Source of the DNA: a virus
Virus record (IMG/VR): IMGVR_UViG_3300031652_000009
Coordinates: 1 to 41,766 of that record
DNA length: 41,766 nt
Reading direction: 5' to 3' (one strand)
In this document: piece after piece, positions 6,736 to 34,005 of the stretch
How the letters are laid out: every line of letters begins with the position of its first letter
How positions within the stretch are numbered: the stretch's first letter is position 1
The notes under the pieces: model-generated
What the model was told of the DNA's origin: nothing
The model's input: the letters and a program-made list of their open reading frames with translations, nothing else
Databases searched by the model: none
Program-made: the position numbers and the translations under genes

Positions 6736-8685
6736 TTATGTATCAAAATCAACTTTTAATATATTATTTTTATTATCAGTGTTATTATTATTTATTTTTC
6801 TTATATTTTTAATTCCCTTGCCTTGTTGACCATTGATCCTGACATTTTTATAAAAATCCTGATCCGGTATTTCCAAATATTCTTTCATCATTTTTTTAAG
6901 TTTTTTACTTTGAAGAGGTGCAAAACCCTCTTCGTATGCTACATTTTGATAGTGTTTATAAATATCAGTCCAATGTATTTTTTCTTCAGGATCTTTAATT
7001 TTCTCATAATTGCTTAATATAAAATCAATAGTTGTGTTGGAATCTTTTTGATATTCTATAATTAAATCGGATTTATCCTCAAAAAATTCAGATTTTCGAT
7101 CCCAATTTTTATATAATAATATACCTTCAATAAGATAATTTAACATTTCGGATCTTAGATCCGAATCATTTTTTATTTGAAACTTCAAATTAGGGTTGTT
7201 TTTTCGACCTCTAAATTGATTATCAAATTTGATTGGGTGGGTTCTGCCCCATAAACCGCCGGTTTCTGCACCTGATTTCATCCGGGGGATTTCATTACAT
7301 GCAATTATTAATTTTAAATTACCTGTCATTGTATAGGAATCTTTATATTTTCTATCAAATGTTAACTCACTACCATCAATAAACTTATTAACAGGTTTAA
7401 TGCTATGAGTTAAGAAAAAATCAGCATCAAGGTCTGGATCTATAAAAATAGTGCAGTTTTCCAAGTTAGTAGGTTTGAAATTTTTATAAATGTCTTCTAA
7501 TGAAGCTGAAGTTATTCTAGACTTCATTAATTCAAACATCATTGATAACATTGTGCCTTTTCCTGATCGTGTTAAACCTACTAAAGCGAAATATTTTTCT
7601 AAATAAAAATCAGTTGTAAAACCATATCCCCATAATTTTTTTATTTCTTCAGAATCAACGCCCCATTGGTTCATGATTTCATCTAAATTTTTAGTTTTAA
7701 TATTTTCATTATAAGTTATATCAATTTGATAAGTTGTGAAAATTTCTGGTGTATGAGGTATTAATTTTTTTGCTTTAATATCATAGATCCCGTTTTTCAC
7801 ATTAATATAATTATCCAAGTCGGGAAATTCAGCTTTTGGGGCAATACAATCATAAAATAATGATTTGATATTATTTAATTGATTAATAGTTAAACTAACC
7901 AGCTTTTTATTTTCTATAGCAAAAATATATTTTCTTAATTGCTGGTTTAATAATGAATTATTTTTATCATCTGTAAATGGTTTATAGTAATTATTCTTTT
8001 CATCATAATAATATAAATCATTGCTGATTTTATGTCGTTTTATAATAGGAAAATATTTTCTGACTATATCCTTTATATAGTCAATATTTAAATTATAAAA
8101 GCCCTCCAATTGCTGTACTAATTCTTTCCATATCTTATTAAATGTCGTTTTTATTTGTTTATATAACTTCTGATGTTTGTCGTCAATACAATCAGTTTTA
8201 CTAAACGTATGTGTATGACCACTATCTGCAAATGTTTTTAATTTTTGATTGTTTTTACCACAAATAGGACAGCTCCAAATTATACCATTACTTTTTATCT
8301 GTTTTATATAATCATCAATATCTAAGATTTCAAATGTATTTTTCAATGCTTCTAATTGTTTATTAATTATGGTATTTTGTAACTTTTCTTTATACTCTAC
8401 ATATTCATACTTTATTCCTTGTTTATTACATGGTAAAATATTTCTGATAGGTAAAGTTATGTAACTTTTTTTCGATATAGTGGCAGTAAAGGGGATTATC
8501 AATTGGGATTCCCTTTGTTGGACTTCGACTATTCTAAAATTCTTTTTTAGATAGTCAATTTCTTTCTCTAAATAGCTATCTAAATTATCATTATCAATAA
8601 TATCTTGGAAAATATTTTCGTCTAAATCTATAGACTCAATGTCATACTCCAAGATTATATAGTCATTTCCGCTGTTTGTTACCAT
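6736..8685 (-). CDS. P4-type primase / superfamily 3 helicase
   Basis: A 649-residue replication protein. Residues 139-166 hold a zinc-binding-like pattern (CPIC, then HTHT and C166). Residues about 200-330 resemble the D5 N-terminal region (DNYINVKNGIYDI). The C-terminal half is an SF3 helicase: Walker A GLTRSGKGT (370-378), Walker B CTIFIDPDLD (411-420), motif C KLIIACNEIPR (458-468) and an arginine finger in LWGRTHP (R481). Such proteins load at phage or plasmid origins as hexamers and unwind DNA; P4 alpha protein also binds iterons and primes. A primase active site is not obvious here, so priming activity is inferred. It overlaps the AbrB-like gene by 23 bases and faces iteron array A. 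Confidence 0.88.
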   Translation of the reverse strand: MVTNSGNDYIILEYDIESIDLDENIFQDIIDNDNLDSYLEKEIDYLKKNFRIVEVQQRESQLIIPFTATISKKSYITLPIRNILPCNKQGIKYEYVEYKEKLQNTIINKQLEALKNTFEILDIDDYIKQIKSNGIIWSCPICGKNNQKLKTFADSGHTHTFSKTDCIDDKHQKLYKQIKTTFNKIWKELVQQLEGFYNLNIDYIKDIVRKYFPIIKRHKISNDLYYYDEKNNYYKPFTDDKNNSLLNQQLRKYIFAIENKKLVSLTINQLNNIKSLFYDCIAPKAEFPDLDNYINVKNGIYDIKAKKLIPHTPEIFTTYQIDITYNENIKTKNLDEIMNQWGVDSEEIKKLWGYGFTTDFYLEKYFALVGLTRSGKGTMLSMMFELMKSRITSASLEDIYKNFKPTNLENCTIFIDPDLDADFFLTHSIKPVNKFIDGSELTFDRKYKDSYTMTGNLKLIIACNEIPRMKSGAETGGLWGRTHPIKFDNQFRGRKNNPNLKFQIKNDSDLRSEMLNYLIEGILLYKNWDRKSEFFEDKSDLIIEYQKDSNTTIDFILSNYEKIKDPEEKIHWTDIYKHYQNVAYEEGFAPLQSKKLKKMMKEYLEIPDQDFYKNVRINGQQGKGIKNIRKINNNNTDNKNNILKVDFDT

Positions 8686-8848
8686 TTAGAATCCCTTCTT
8701 TCTTATCAATGACTATTTTATTATTATGCTTATATACAACGATTAGATCGCCTTTTATTAAATTTAATTCTTTTAAGAGTTCATTTGGCAAATTAACACA
8801 TAAACTATTACCATTATATGTTACAATTCGATCATATTTTGAAACCAT
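8663..8848 (-). CDS. AbrB/MazE-type transcription regulator
   Basis: A 61-residue protein with a SpoVT/AbrB swapped-hairpin signature: SLCVNLPNELLKELNLIKGD followed by LIVVYKHNNKIVI. I start it at ATG 8848, which has a GAGGTGATT ribosome site, rather than at an upstream ATG lacking one. The family binds DNA as a dimer and often autoregulates. The palindrome TGTCATGACA at the predicted transcription start could be its operator. It could alternatively be the antitoxin half of a toxin-antitoxin pair, but the next gene is the primase, not a toxin. Confidence 0.8.
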   Translation of the reverse strand: MVSKYDRIVTYNGNSLCVNLPNELLKELNLIKGDLIVVYKHNNKIVIDKKEGILNGNKQRK

Positions 8849-8931: not shown

Positions 8932-8950
8932 TAATTTTATCATTGTTATT

Positions 8951-9413
<463 letters not shown>

Positions 9414-9419
<6 letters not shown>

Positions 9420-9442
9420 TGAGTAATTAATTATTGTATACT
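9414..9442 (+). promoter_or_regulatory. Candidate promoter at the right edge of array A
   Basis: TTTACA (9414-9419), 17-base spacer, TATACT (9437-9442) on the plus strand. Transcription would start near 9449 and reach the terminator at 9540-9574. In array B the corresponding segment keeps GAGTAATTAATTATTGTATA but has a poorer -35. Confidence 0.55.
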
Positions 9443-9447
9443 ATAGG

Positions 9448-9574
9448 TATAATAATGAAAGTTATTTTTTTCATAATTATTTTCCTATTGTAAATAATAA
9501 ATGAATGCACGTAAAATTAAAAGAAATAATAATGTAATGGTCAAAGATTAAGCAACTTTGACTTTTTTTTTTTT
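9448..9574 (+). ncRNA. Candidate small RNA beside array A
   Basis: A stretch bounded by a plausible promoter and a good intrinsic terminator, without a supported gene. It could be an origin-linked regulatory or primer RNA. A 12-codon hydrophobic frame (starts 9455, MKVIFFIIIFLL) lies inside but lacks a convincing ribosome site. Confidence 0.35.
9540..9574 (+). terminator. Intrinsic terminator
   Basis: GTCAAAG (9540-9546), nine-base loop, CTTTGAC (9556-9562), followed by twelve T. Plus-strand orientation. It insulates the divergent control region from transcription out of the iteron array. Confidence 0.85.
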
Positions 9575-9586
9575 GTAAAAAAATCA

Positions 9587-9699
9587 TTTAATTGTATAAC
9601 TACTTATATTATAATGTAATTATAGTCTTGAATTGTTATGAGTGATAATGTAGAGTATCACCAAATAAGAGATAATTGCAGTTATCTCTTATTTTATTT
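9587..9699 (+). ncRNA. Candidate small RNA unit (promoter-like element plus terminator hairpin)
   Basis: A -10 element TATAAT (9610-9615) sits in TACTTATATTATAATGTAAT, the same 20-mer found at the main promoter 120 bases downstream, but its -35 is weak. The following sequence forms GTGATA/TATCAC and a 13-bp hairpin (9663-9675 with 9682-9694) ending in T-rich sequence. This would give an RNA of about 75 nt. It may instead be a relic of promoter duplication. Confidence 0.35.
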
Positions 9700-9708
9700 A
9701 AAAAGTTA

Positions 9709-9737
9709 TTGACAACAATAAGTACTTATATTATAAT
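9709..9737 (+). promoter_or_regulatory. Main rightward promoter
   Basis: TTGACA (9709-9714), 17-base spacer, TATAAT (9732-9737). TTATTGACA, the TAAGT element and TATAATGTAAT are shared with P2. It is the only consensus promoter upstream of the ssDNA-binding gene, giving a leader of about 565 nt. Confidence 0.85.
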
Positions 9738-9743
9738 GTAATC

Positions 9744-10309
9744 AGTTAATGAAGTTGTAAAAAAAATTATATATTGTACACTTTGTAAGTCGTTCTAAGG
9801 AACGACTTACAAAAAAAAAATCAGTATATACAAATGGTGTAAGCTTGACTATGGTTAAGATAGAGTTTACCGCAAGATACTAGTTATAAAGCGTAAATAG
9901 GCTGACGAGTTAAAGAATACATAATTGTATCGCTCTACTTACACCGTTTGTATATACTGATAAGTATATAGTGAATACCTTAATAGAAATAGATAATTCA
10001 TTTAAGTAATACCGGCTAATTTTTATAGTTTTTTATCGCCGTAAAACGTATAAAAACAAGGGTGTGGCAGGTGGGTAATATAAAATTTTGTATTATGTGA
10101 TAGTTTTTTTTAAGCTAGTTTTTAGTAAAAAACTAGCATTCCAAGGTAAACTTTTTAGTAACGTTTTTAAAACACCTTAAGCGAATAATAAAATGTTACA
10201 CTAAAATTTTGGACTGTTTTAAGCTCCTTAATATTAATTGATTTGATAACAGGTTTCCGGGTTTTCCTTAAAAACCCGGAATTAAAAATTATAAAGGAGA
10301 ATTAGCGAT
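9744..10309 (+). ncRNA. Long structured leader RNA
   Basis: No credible gene in about 560 bases, but at least six stems: 9782-9795/9800-9813 (14 bp, perfect); 9821-9843/9938-9960 (23 bp, one U-G); 10020-10032/10043-10056 (13 bp, one bulge); 10114-10123/10128-10137 (10 bp, perfect); 10153-10167/10190-10206 (15 bp, one G-U, CA bulge); 10255-10265/10271-10281 (11 bp, perfect). The non-Watson-Crick pairs are G-U when read on the plus strand, which supports folding as RNA. None is followed by a T-run, so these are not ordinary terminators. Large phage RNAs such as ROOL or GOLLD are possible relatives, untested. Confidence 0.65.
9820..9961 (+). ncRNA. 142-nt multi-branched RNA element closed by a 24-bp stem
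   Basis: The closing stem pairs 9820-9843 with 9938-9961. Inside are CTTGAC/GTTAAG (9844-9849 with 9854-9859, one G-U), TAGAG/CTCTA (9861-9865 with 9933-9937), a bulged TTTACCGC/GCGTAAA stem (9866-9897) and ATACA/TGTAT (9917-9930). This compact architecture looks like a discrete RNA domain. A MITE-like element with inverted ends is the alternative, but no target duplication is clear. Confidence 0.5.
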
Positions 10310-10975
10310 ATGGCTAAAAAAAATTCAAGAATTAAATTTAAAACTAAAGGACAAAAATGGGTAACAGGAAAAGTATATTTACTATTCCCAAGTCTAGAAA
10401 AACCCAGTCAATTTGATGAGGATTCCGAATTAAAGTATTCAGTAACAATTCTAATGGACAAAGATTCAAAAGATGTTAAGAACATAAAAGAAATAATATC
10501 GTCTGAATGGCTTGAGGGTACTATTAAAAAAGGTGCGCACAACCCATTAAAAGATGGTGACTTGAAAAAGGCTGAACTTGAAAAAGAAGATAAAAACGGT
10601 GATATTTACGAAAATAGATATTATATTAGATCCTCTTCAAAGTTTGAAGTCAAGGTAGTAGATGCCAATAAAAGGATCTGGGTGGGTACAGATCAAGAAA
10701 TCAATGGATTTGTTGGTAGGGTTCATAGTTTAGTAAGAGCCTACGAAGCCGGAATAAATTCAGGTGTAACACTTTATTTAAAAGGTGTTCAAGTTATAAG
10801 TAAAGGTCTTGAAATTGGTGGAGATACAACCGCTGATTTTGATGTTGAAGAAACTGAAGATGATGATCCTTTTGGAAATGATGAAAATAATCAAAAAAAT
10901 AACGAAAAAAATCAAAAAAATAACGAAAAAAATGAAAAATTGAATAAAAATCAACAAGAATTACCTGATTTTTAA
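10310..10975 (+). CDS. Single-stranded DNA-binding protein, DUF2815 type
   Basis: A 221-residue protein. The N-terminal 170 residues match the DUF2815 family of phage ssDNA-binding-like proteins (WVTGKVYLLFPSLEKPSQ, then YSVTILMDKDSKD and an IKKGAHNPLKDGD stretch). The tail (about 170-221) is acidic, then low-complexity Asn/Lys/Glu repeats (KNNEKNQKNNEKN), ending PDF, like the acidic, disordered protein-interaction tail of SSB proteins. AAGGAGAATTAGCGAT precedes the start. It follows the structured leader and is the first gene of the rightward arm, ending in a strong terminator. Role: coating ssDNA during replication or recombination. Confidence 0.8.
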   Translation: MAKKNSRIKFKTKGQKWVTGKVYLLFPSLEKPSQFDEDSELKYSVTILMDKDSKDVKNIKEIISSEWLEGTIKKGAHNPLKDGDLKKAELEKEDKNGDIYENRYYIRSSSKFEVKVVDANKRIWVGTDQEINGFVGRVHSLVRAYEAGINSGVTLYLKGVQVISKGLEIGGDTTADFDVEETEDDDPFGNDENNQKNNEKNQKNNEKNEKLNKNQQELPDF

Positions 10976-11005
10976 ATAAATATACGAAAAAACAACAAAA
11001 ACAAA

Positions 11006-11050
11006 AAATCAATCTATACTTGTAAATATCAGGGATAGATTGATTTTTTT
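11006..11050 (+). terminator. Intrinsic terminator after the ssDNA-binding gene
   Basis: A 12-bp stem AAATCAATCTAT (11006-11017) with ATAGATTGATTT (11035-11046), followed by T4. It separates the ssDNA-binding gene from the downstream cluster. No new consensus promoter is seen before 11086, so readthrough or an unrecognised late promoter must serve those genes. Confidence 0.85.
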
Positions 11051-12740: not shown

Positions 12741-12787
12741 ACACCTGTCAATAACTTATTGACAGGTGTAAGTAATTATAGTATAAT
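12741..12787 (+). promoter_or_regulatory. Promoter P3 with a perfect 29-base palindromic operator
   Basis: TTGACA (12759-12764), 17-base spacer, TATAAT (12782-12787). The palindrome ACACCTGTCAATAA, central C, TTATTGACAGGTGT (12741-12769) is perfect and includes the -35 box, so a dimeric protein bound there would control the promoter. P1 carries only the promoter-side half. Confidence 0.8.
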
Positions 12788-17228: not shown

Positions 17229-17242
17229 AAATATAAATTACT

Positions 17243-17776
<534 letters not shown>

Positions 17777-32706: not shown

Positions 32707-33412
32707 AAATTTTAATTATGGGTTATTAACATCAATAATGAATAAAAAAGTAAATCAATTATTTATTACTGGTAATATATCAAGTTTAAGTCCTTTGCAA
32801 GTTAAATTAACACCATCCGACGATGCTATAAATGTAAAAAGTTTAACTAATTTAGTAAATGTTAAAGTTGGATCAAATGTATTAATGGTTAAATTTTTAA
32901 ATAAATTTATTATTATTGGTGTTATTGGTGCTATTGTCGATCCTAGTGTAAAGGTTGTAGTAAAACAATCTTCTCAAAGTTCAAACACAAGTAGTAGTTT
33001 TACAACTGATAGTGAATTAACAATGACATTAAAACCTAATAAATTATATAGAATTGATTTTTATCTTATAGTTAATAATGCAAGTACCTCACCGGATATG
33101 GTTGTTAATTTTAATAATACTGGAACAGTTACCCTATACGGTCAAAATCATTTCAGATGTATGTCAGTAAGTGGCACAAATAACGCCGCTTATGATTTTG
33201 GAAAAACTTCTACTTATGATGCTTTTGATGATGATATCGTTATTGGATTAAATTCCGGTCATGGTTCGGCAAGAAGTTCATTTATGGCAAAAGGTGGGGC
33301 TTCTGGTGGTAATATAACTTTATTATTTAGGCAATATAGTACAGATGGTGGTAATCCTTCATATGTACGTGTAGGATCTTTCATTGAATATTATGAAGTT
33401 CAAGAAGTTTAA
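32693..33412 (+). CDS. Baseplate / receptor-binding candidate
   Basis: A 239-residue protein overlapping the hub gene by 14 bases, with GGAGGATTT before the ATG. Residues about 1-85 are OB-like, as in small baseplate proteins (LFITGNISSLSPLQVKLTPS, GSNVLMVKFLNKFIIIGVIG). Residues about 90-239 form a beta-sandwich-like tip (TDSELTMTLKPNKLYRIDFY ... VRVGSFIEYYEVQEV) similar in pattern to phage fibre-tip or TNF-like jelly rolls. It is the last gene of the late arm, often the receptor-binding protein. Confidence 0.55.
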   Translation: MKLNKNFNYGLLTSIMNKKVNQLFITGNISSLSPLQVKLTPSDDAINVKSLTNLVNVKVGSNVLMVKFLNKFIIIGVIGAIVDPSVKVVVKQSSQSSNTSSSFTTDSELTMTLKPNKLYRIDFYLIVNNASTSPDMVVNFNNTGTVTLYGQNHFRCMSVSGTNNAAYDFGKTSTYDAFDDDIVIGLNSGHGSARSSFMAKGGASGGNITLLFRQYSTDGGNPSYVRVGSFIEYYEVQEV

Positions 33413-33561
33413 AACTTGCTAGATGTAAATTTGCTAAGTATAAAAAAAAATTTGCTAATTAAAAACCTGCTAGATATAAATTTGCTAGATATAAATTTGC
33501 TAGATATAAATTTGCTAGATATAAATTTGCTAGATATAAATTTGCTAAGTATAAAAAAAAA
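33413..33561. repeat. TTGCTA tandem repeat array
   Basis: About ten units beginning TTGCTA, with five or six near-perfect copies of the 15-mer TTTGCTAGATATAAA (about 33470-33543) and two longer units ending in A9. The same sequence forms the left arm of the terminator that follows. Read in one frame from TTG it gives LLDIN repeats, but no ribosome site is present, so I regard it as non-coding. Confidence 0.8.
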
Positions 33562-33595
33562 CTTGCTAGACATGATTATATCTAGCAAGTTTTTA
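33553..33595. terminator. Bidirectional terminator between the converging arms
   Basis: AACTTGCTAGA (33560-33570), ten-base loop, TCTAGCAAGTT (33581-33591). On the plus strand it is followed by T4-5; on the minus strand by nine T (the A-run at 33552-33560). It ends both the structural operon and the minus-strand operon. Confidence 0.88.
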
Positions 33596-33606
33596 GTTAG
33601 TAAGTT

Positions 33607-34005
33607 TTAATTAGCAATATAATTAAAAGTATATTTAACACTTGCTAGGTATCCACCTTTTGAAAAATTTAAATAAATAATATTTTCTCCGGAATCTAAA
33701 GGTCTATAAGGACTAACATAATATTTATTACCTGTAATATATATATAATGTCCGTCTAAATATAAATAGCCTTTAGCGGTAATCAAAAATCGATCACTGA
33801 TTAATAAATTCCCTGTAAACCAATTACCAAGATTATTATTAAATTCGCTAAAAAATATATTACCACCTAATTTACAATCAATATAGAGTCTATCAAAAGT
33901 ATTTGATTCGACATCAATCGATTGTAAATAAGTATCGCAAAAAACCGTATTGCTAAAATTAAATAAAAGTATTAAAATTAATGCGATTAAAATAAATTTT
34001 TTCAT
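33607..34005 (-). CDS. Secreted protein with signal peptide (132 aa)
   Basis: A 132-residue protein with a clear signal peptide (MKKFILIALILILLFNFSNT, cleavage probably near FCD at 24-25). The mature part is beta-rich (YLYLDGHYIYITGNKYYVSP, NIIYLNFSKGGYLASVKY). No lipobox of standard form. It sits at the end of the minus arm next to the terminator, a common place for accessory genes. A phage-encoded exported protein could alter the host surface, for example superinfection exclusion, but nothing in the sequence proves this. Confidence 0.6.
   Translation of the reverse strand: MKKFILIALILILLFNFSNTVFCDTYLQSIDVESNTFDRLYIDCKLGGNIFFSEFNNNLGNWFTGNLLISDRFLITAKGYLYLDGHYIYITGNKYYVSPYRPLDSGENIIYLNFSKGGYLASVKYTFNYIAN

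Follow-up and report, generated by a model that had tools for sequence, protein, structure and literature searches.

The locus and its promoters

The DNA analysed here, called the window throughout, is an entire IMG/VR virus record (IMGVR_UViG_3300031652_000009) of 41,766 bases and 27% GC. Its source is a tailed phage of which little is known; the closest TerL in the phage collection is ~40% identical, and the window phage thus has no close relative there. Genes for a D5/P4-type primase and a DNA polymerase run leftward, and a rightward block opens with the gene for a Gp2.5/Enc34-type ssDNA-binding protein (SSB), behind which lie the packaging and structural genes (Table 1). Between the two lies the interval 9744-10309, which an earlier note on this DNA had described as a gene-free leader RNA of ~560 bases with long stems, none of them a standard terminator. 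The interval does lack genes (no ORF of at least 50 aa; longest start-to-stop frame 30 codons), the stems that had been named were found by inverted-repeat search and folding, and no terminator-like site lies within it.

Table 1. Features at the leader locus of the window and in its gene setting
Feature	Position	Strand	Basis or remark
DNA polymerase gene	6283-3557	leftward	
D5/P4-type primase gene	8685-6736	leftward	
Leader promoter, TTGACA-17-TATAAT, palindromic spacer ATAAGTACTTAT	9709..9737	+	12/12 consensus, sigma-70-type
Promoter-proximal motif TATATATTGTACAC	9768..9781	+	identical at L142:7207-7220 in the relative
Hairpin H1, perfect 14-bp stem	9782-9795/9800-9813	+	inverted repeat, folding
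Core RNA closed by helix P1	9820..9961	+	P1 9820-9843/9938-9961, 24 bp, one U-G
Hairpin P2, CTTGAC TATG GTTAAG	9844..9859	+	stem 9844-9849/9854-9859
Hairpin P3, GUUUAC-c-GC ... GC-GUAAAU	9865..9898	+	apical loop with palindrome ACUAGU
Weak hairpin P4, GGCU-GACG-AGUU	9900..9911	+	relative: GAUU-GACG-AAUC
Remaining 5' untranslated region	9971..10309	+	not clearly structured overall, z -2.2
SSB gene	10310..10975	+	PF10991 E 2e-21; phrog_112 E 1e-28
Terminator-like hairpin closing the promoter-RNA-SSB unit	11004..11048	+	

The structure is concentrated at the 5' end. The first 227 nt (9744-9970) have an MFE of -71.4 and a z of -8.3 against shuffles. The following 339 nt, which contain hairpins at 10114-10137 and 10257-10279 together with the SSB ribosome-binding site AAAGGAG, reach z -2.2 on the plus strand (4 of 100 shuffles were as good) and z -3.2 on the minus strand. 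Sliding windows of 160 nt give z -4.8 at 9700, -2.6 at 9780 and 0 to -2.2 beyond that, where controls average -0.7 (SD 1.3). The description of a structured leader is thus upheld for the first ~230 nt and not for the other ~340, and the stable RNA of 140-560 nt that had been proposed can be narrowed to a 142-nt core inside those ~230 nt.

The interval opens 7 nt past its promoter, which is one of a set. The same cassette, laid out as AAGTTATTGACA...TAAGTANTTAT...TATAAT with a palindromic spacer, recurs in the cassette alignment at 3523-3495(-), 6729-6701(-), 9709-9737(+) and 12759-12787(+), and the nearest relative of the phage bears a version of its own with the palindrome TATAGTATACTATA. The palindromic spacer looks like a repressor operator, and the cassettes of the two phages look like a repressor regulon that has diverged jointly with its repressor. 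That the leader promoter shares this recurring cassette suggests, without proving it, that the RNA is made together with the replication genes. Upstream, three promoter-like copies stand in tandem at 9403-9740; the first two seem to be terminated at 9540-9574 (a 7-bp hairpin plus T12) and 9663-9699, and two short RNAs of ~120 and ~80 nt would appear to precede the main leader.

Two non-coding arrays of GGTAACA/TGTTACC iterons, each of ~490 bp and mutually 80.5% identical, lie at 8950-9440, upstream of the primase gene, and at 17238-17715, between the portal gene and the next. The relative also has two arrays arranged in this way, but built of another iteron, GGTTACA. The layout recalls ori and crr of phage P4, and by this analogy the pair of arrays may be a replication origin. 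Replication-origin hairpins were considered as the identity of the RNA element, which adjoins an array in the window, and were set aside because the relative has element and arrays far apart, which leaves the element without a clear tie to the origin.

The element in the nearest relative

Relatives were sought by a TerL profile scan, which recovered phages with common structural genes, and by a DNA polymerase scan, which recovered the closest, IMGVR_UViG_3300031371_000009 (G013; coordinates prefixed L142). Its DNA polymerase is 57% and its major capsid protein 79% identical to those of the window phage. A DNA search of this record with the intergenic region of the window picked out the arms and the centre of the window's 142-nt inverted repeat, and the homologous core, at L142:7567-7758, was aligned with that of the window by hand. 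No other stretch of the intergenic region aligns as well. The 23 pairs of P1 common to both phages are identical at 45 of 46 bases, the 5' strand being unchanged, against coding DNA that is mostly 65-70% identical between the two phages (up to 78% in short stretches), so P1 must be under strong constraint. The sole difference, A to G in the 3' strand, turns a U-A pair into U-G in the plus-strand RNA and would leave an A-C mismatch in the minus.

The rest of the element is conserved in patches. The motif TATATATTGTACAC runs directly into a strong hairpin in both phages, that of the relative (L142:7221-7249) having a sequence other than H1. Within the core, P2 and the 3' hairpin differ in sequence and keep their pairing, P2 being replaced by a longer unrelated hairpin. 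The lower stem of P3 (six pairs) and its loop core AUACUAGUUA are identical at L142:7635-7670, and the loop-loop duplex that two ACUAGU palindromes would form has a computed energy of -5.8 kcal/mol. The stem of P4 is worth only about -0.5 kcal/mol; its GACG loop is fixed, one pair has changed on both sides from C-G to U-A, and others have changed on one side. Across the alignment of the two cores, 70 of 71 pair cells are formed and one pair is changed on both sides, a result equalled by 239 of 500 shuffles (n=2), and covariation carries no statistical weight since only two members were found. P1 in particular has been preserved as sequence, without compensatory changes, as would also be expected of a target for DNA binding.

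As to the strand, the earlier note is right that the plus strand has U-G or G-U at the pairs 9835/9946, 9847/9856 and 10163/10194. Selection on a plus-strand RNA, which it had read from them, is supported by the relative more than by the wobbles themselves, which at three of three are weak evidence (p = 1/8). Both cores fold more stably as plus-strand RNA, at -48.8 versus -39.6 kcal/mol in the window and -58.8 versus -43.3 kcal/mol in the relative; the whole interval 9744-10309 scores z -7.7 on the minus and z -6.8 on the plus strand. The stability of the window core (9820-9961, z -6.65) includes its closing helix, the interior within that helix being no stabler than shuffled sequence (z 0.05). 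For the window copy, the fold common to both phages comes within ~2 kcal/mol of the optimum (-46.6 vs -48.8).

In the window the order is promoter, hairpin, core, 350 nt, SSB and terminator. In the relative a promoter (7154-7182) is followed by a hairpin, a tRNA-Met gene (7258-7331), further structured RNA and the core, which ends ~35 nt ahead of the ribosome-binding site of a 306-aa coiled-coil gene (7808-8728), itself followed by a terminator (8744-8776). Each transcript thus comprises promoter, RNA, one gene and terminator, and no terminator separates RNA from gene. The genes after this unit in the relative, SSB and TerS among them, are driven by their own promoters, that of SSB lying 2.7 kb downstream. 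A further phage, G014, resembles the relative in that its SSB gene has a separate promoter and, as there, a short leader, and in a comparison of the three phages the leader is not conserved together with the SSB gene. The suggestion that the leader controls the rightward operon in cis finds no support in its SSB-specific form, the core of the relative heading another gene; such control is unlikely because the gene behind the RNA is not conserved.

Other large phage RNAs often have transfer RNAs nearby (PMC12286853). Elsewhere in the relative, L142:11097-11214 is a tRNA-like gene with acceptor, D, anticodon and T stems and an anticodon loop ~50 nt larger than usual, called by ARAGORN only with the intron option (tRNA-Ile, 26-nt intron). 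Similar sequence lies at L112:9090-9010 (-) in record G006, within a gene-free leader of ~790 nt (L112:9262-8475 (-)) heading the corresponding operon. That leader holds degenerate tRNA-like pieces with intact T-arms, for which neither ARAGORN nor Rfam makes a call. It was considered as a member on account of its corresponding place and not counted as one, since it lacks the core and shows no clear structure (z -1.6).

Known RNA families and further members

In Rfam searches that included a permissive cmscan, no family reached its gathering score in the window, and in the relative only tRNA did. The covariance searches against ROOL and GOLLD proposed in the earlier note gave no match at the locus. 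For ROOL (RF03087; gathering 99.1 bits), nothing matched in the window, G013, G006 or G001 even with E allowed up to 10, in a search whose control genomes gave no ROOL signal by which to gauge its sensitivity. GOLLD (RF02032; gathering 150 bits) has none in the window, and its best match in the relative, 9.8 bits, lies elsewhere than the core. The possibility that the RNA is a new class, raised at the same time, fits the lack of any matching Rfam family.

Several known RNAs nevertheless share features with the element. Like it, ROOL is a phage-borne structured RNA, often near tRNAs, and uses kissing loops in its assemblies (PMC12286853), but its model has 574 positions, against ~230 structured nt here, which lie inside an mRNA leader. 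GOLLD is likewise phage-borne and often near tRNAs, which sometimes sit inside its linker (PMC12286853), but its model of 416 positions is to be compared with a 142-nt core. Symmetric palindromic kissing loops are known for GOLLD and for OLE (PMC12286853). The putRNA of HK022, ~70 nt with two stem-loops near the early promoters (PMC9378689), resembles the element, as does EAR, in being a stem-loop RNA that opens a phage transcript independently of the gene behind it; the difference is that here each unit terminates after one gene, and the later genes of the relative have promoters of their own. Finally, the ‘inter-inverted-repeat’ transcript of PLE and an ~800-nt noncoding RNA of ICP1 are abundant RNAs whose role is not known (PMC7567579). 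The PLE transcript lies between inverted repeats, as the core does, but both RNAs belong to other hosts. A hammerhead ribozyme was considered for CUGACGAG and rejected, as the matching stem II and GAAA are missing, and a retron was considered for the flanking inverted repeats and rejected, no reverse transcriptase being found among the genes examined.

Further members were sought widely. Pattern scans of IMG/VR for the P3 and P4 motifs returned the relative and three chance matches resembling coding DNA. A covariance model of the core found just the two known copies. The screen for the core covered 49 related records, and the sequence of P1 is missing from 48 other related records with up to 3 mismatches allowed. 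DNA searches of phages and plasmids with the leader, and single-protein scans for relatives, gave short, chance-like matches only. A scan with the major capsid protein added one 6.6-kb fragment without the leader region, and a second scan of genome contigs with the DNA polymerase added nothing.

What the element may be

Because the relative has the same RNA before a different gene, the element appears to represent a new, small family of phage RNAs and not to be a switch of SSB. We favour, at a probability of roughly 0.45, a structured non-coding RNA module of ~230 nt that opens a short transcription unit as its 5' leader and acts in its own right. It would be transcribed from one of the repeated promoter cassettes of the phage, as the leader of a promoter-RNA-gene-terminator unit, and its core would be a multi-hairpin domain closed by a helix of 23-24 bp. 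With no terminator between RNA and gene, a separate RNA would need processing, and the long P1 duplex may be an RNase III-type site at which it is cut out of the mRNA. Two copies of the RNA may then pair through the palindromic ACUAGU loop, which is conserved.

The main rival is a gene-independent cis-acting leader, which would act on the stability, translation or growth-phase response of its own mRNA whatever gene follows, in its simplest form as a 5' stabiliser or an RNase III-processed 5' end. A long 5' stem could plausibly stabilise an mRNA. Both copies share a transcript with a gene, with no terminator between, and the core of the relative ends close to a ribosome-binding site; but the gene behind the core differs between the phages, 350 nt of weakly structured RNA intervene between core and SSB start in the window, and a pure stabiliser would need neither the conserved P3 loop nor the GACG loop. 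We regard it as possible, though unlikely. It is improbable that the element acts at the level of DNA, whether as an inverted repeat to which a phage protein binds, as part of an origin or as a MITE-like insertion that has been domesticated and has terminal repeats of 24 bp. In its favour, the sequence of the long inverted repeat is conserved, and in the window the element lies near a GC-skew minimum (9-9.7 kb) and the iteron array at 8950-9440. In the relative, however, the element is at 7.6 kb and the arrays at 17.5 and 37 kb. Moreover, paired hairpins have been swapped in the core interior, unlike in a copied insert, the existing mismatches are G-U in the plus RNA, and no obvious target-site duplication flanks the element.

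The promoter-proximal site and stem-loop make-up also recall HK022 putRNA (PMC9378689), and a put- or EAR-like RNA that makes polymerase ignore downstream terminators would suit the order RNA, SSB, 11086-type gene, TerS, TerL, which is maintained in both phages. However, putRNA is much smaller, and no antitermination family turned up in the permissive Rfam searches. The relative closes its unit with a terminator behind a single gene and starts the later genes from promoters of their own, which makes a long antiterminated operon unnecessary. We think this reading quite improbable. Membership of ROOL or GOLLD as a divergent form, to which the phage setting, the size of the leader and the adjoining tRNA in the relative had pointed, is largely refuted by the searches for both models and the permissive cmscan, and has hardly any likelihood left.

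A fuller version of the favoured RNA module would be a new family of non-coding RNAs made from a short early-type unit, freed at the 23-24 bp duplex and di- or oligomerising through ACUAGU, and so a small functional analogue of ROOL and GOLLD. Taken as a whole, this is rather doubtful. ROOL, GOLLD and similar structured RNAs of phages can reach high abundance, yet we know of none with an assigned function. Tests would be easier on a conserved RNA of much smaller size whose promoter is clear, whose core is defined and whose palindromic loop is conserved. The element is also a reminder that standing in front of a gene need not make an RNA its regulator.

Elsewhere in the window, repetitive non-coding DNA occupies 33410-33617, where convergent gene blocks meet. 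It contains a strong bidirectional terminator (33557-33594), and similar repeats occur near one end of the relative's record.
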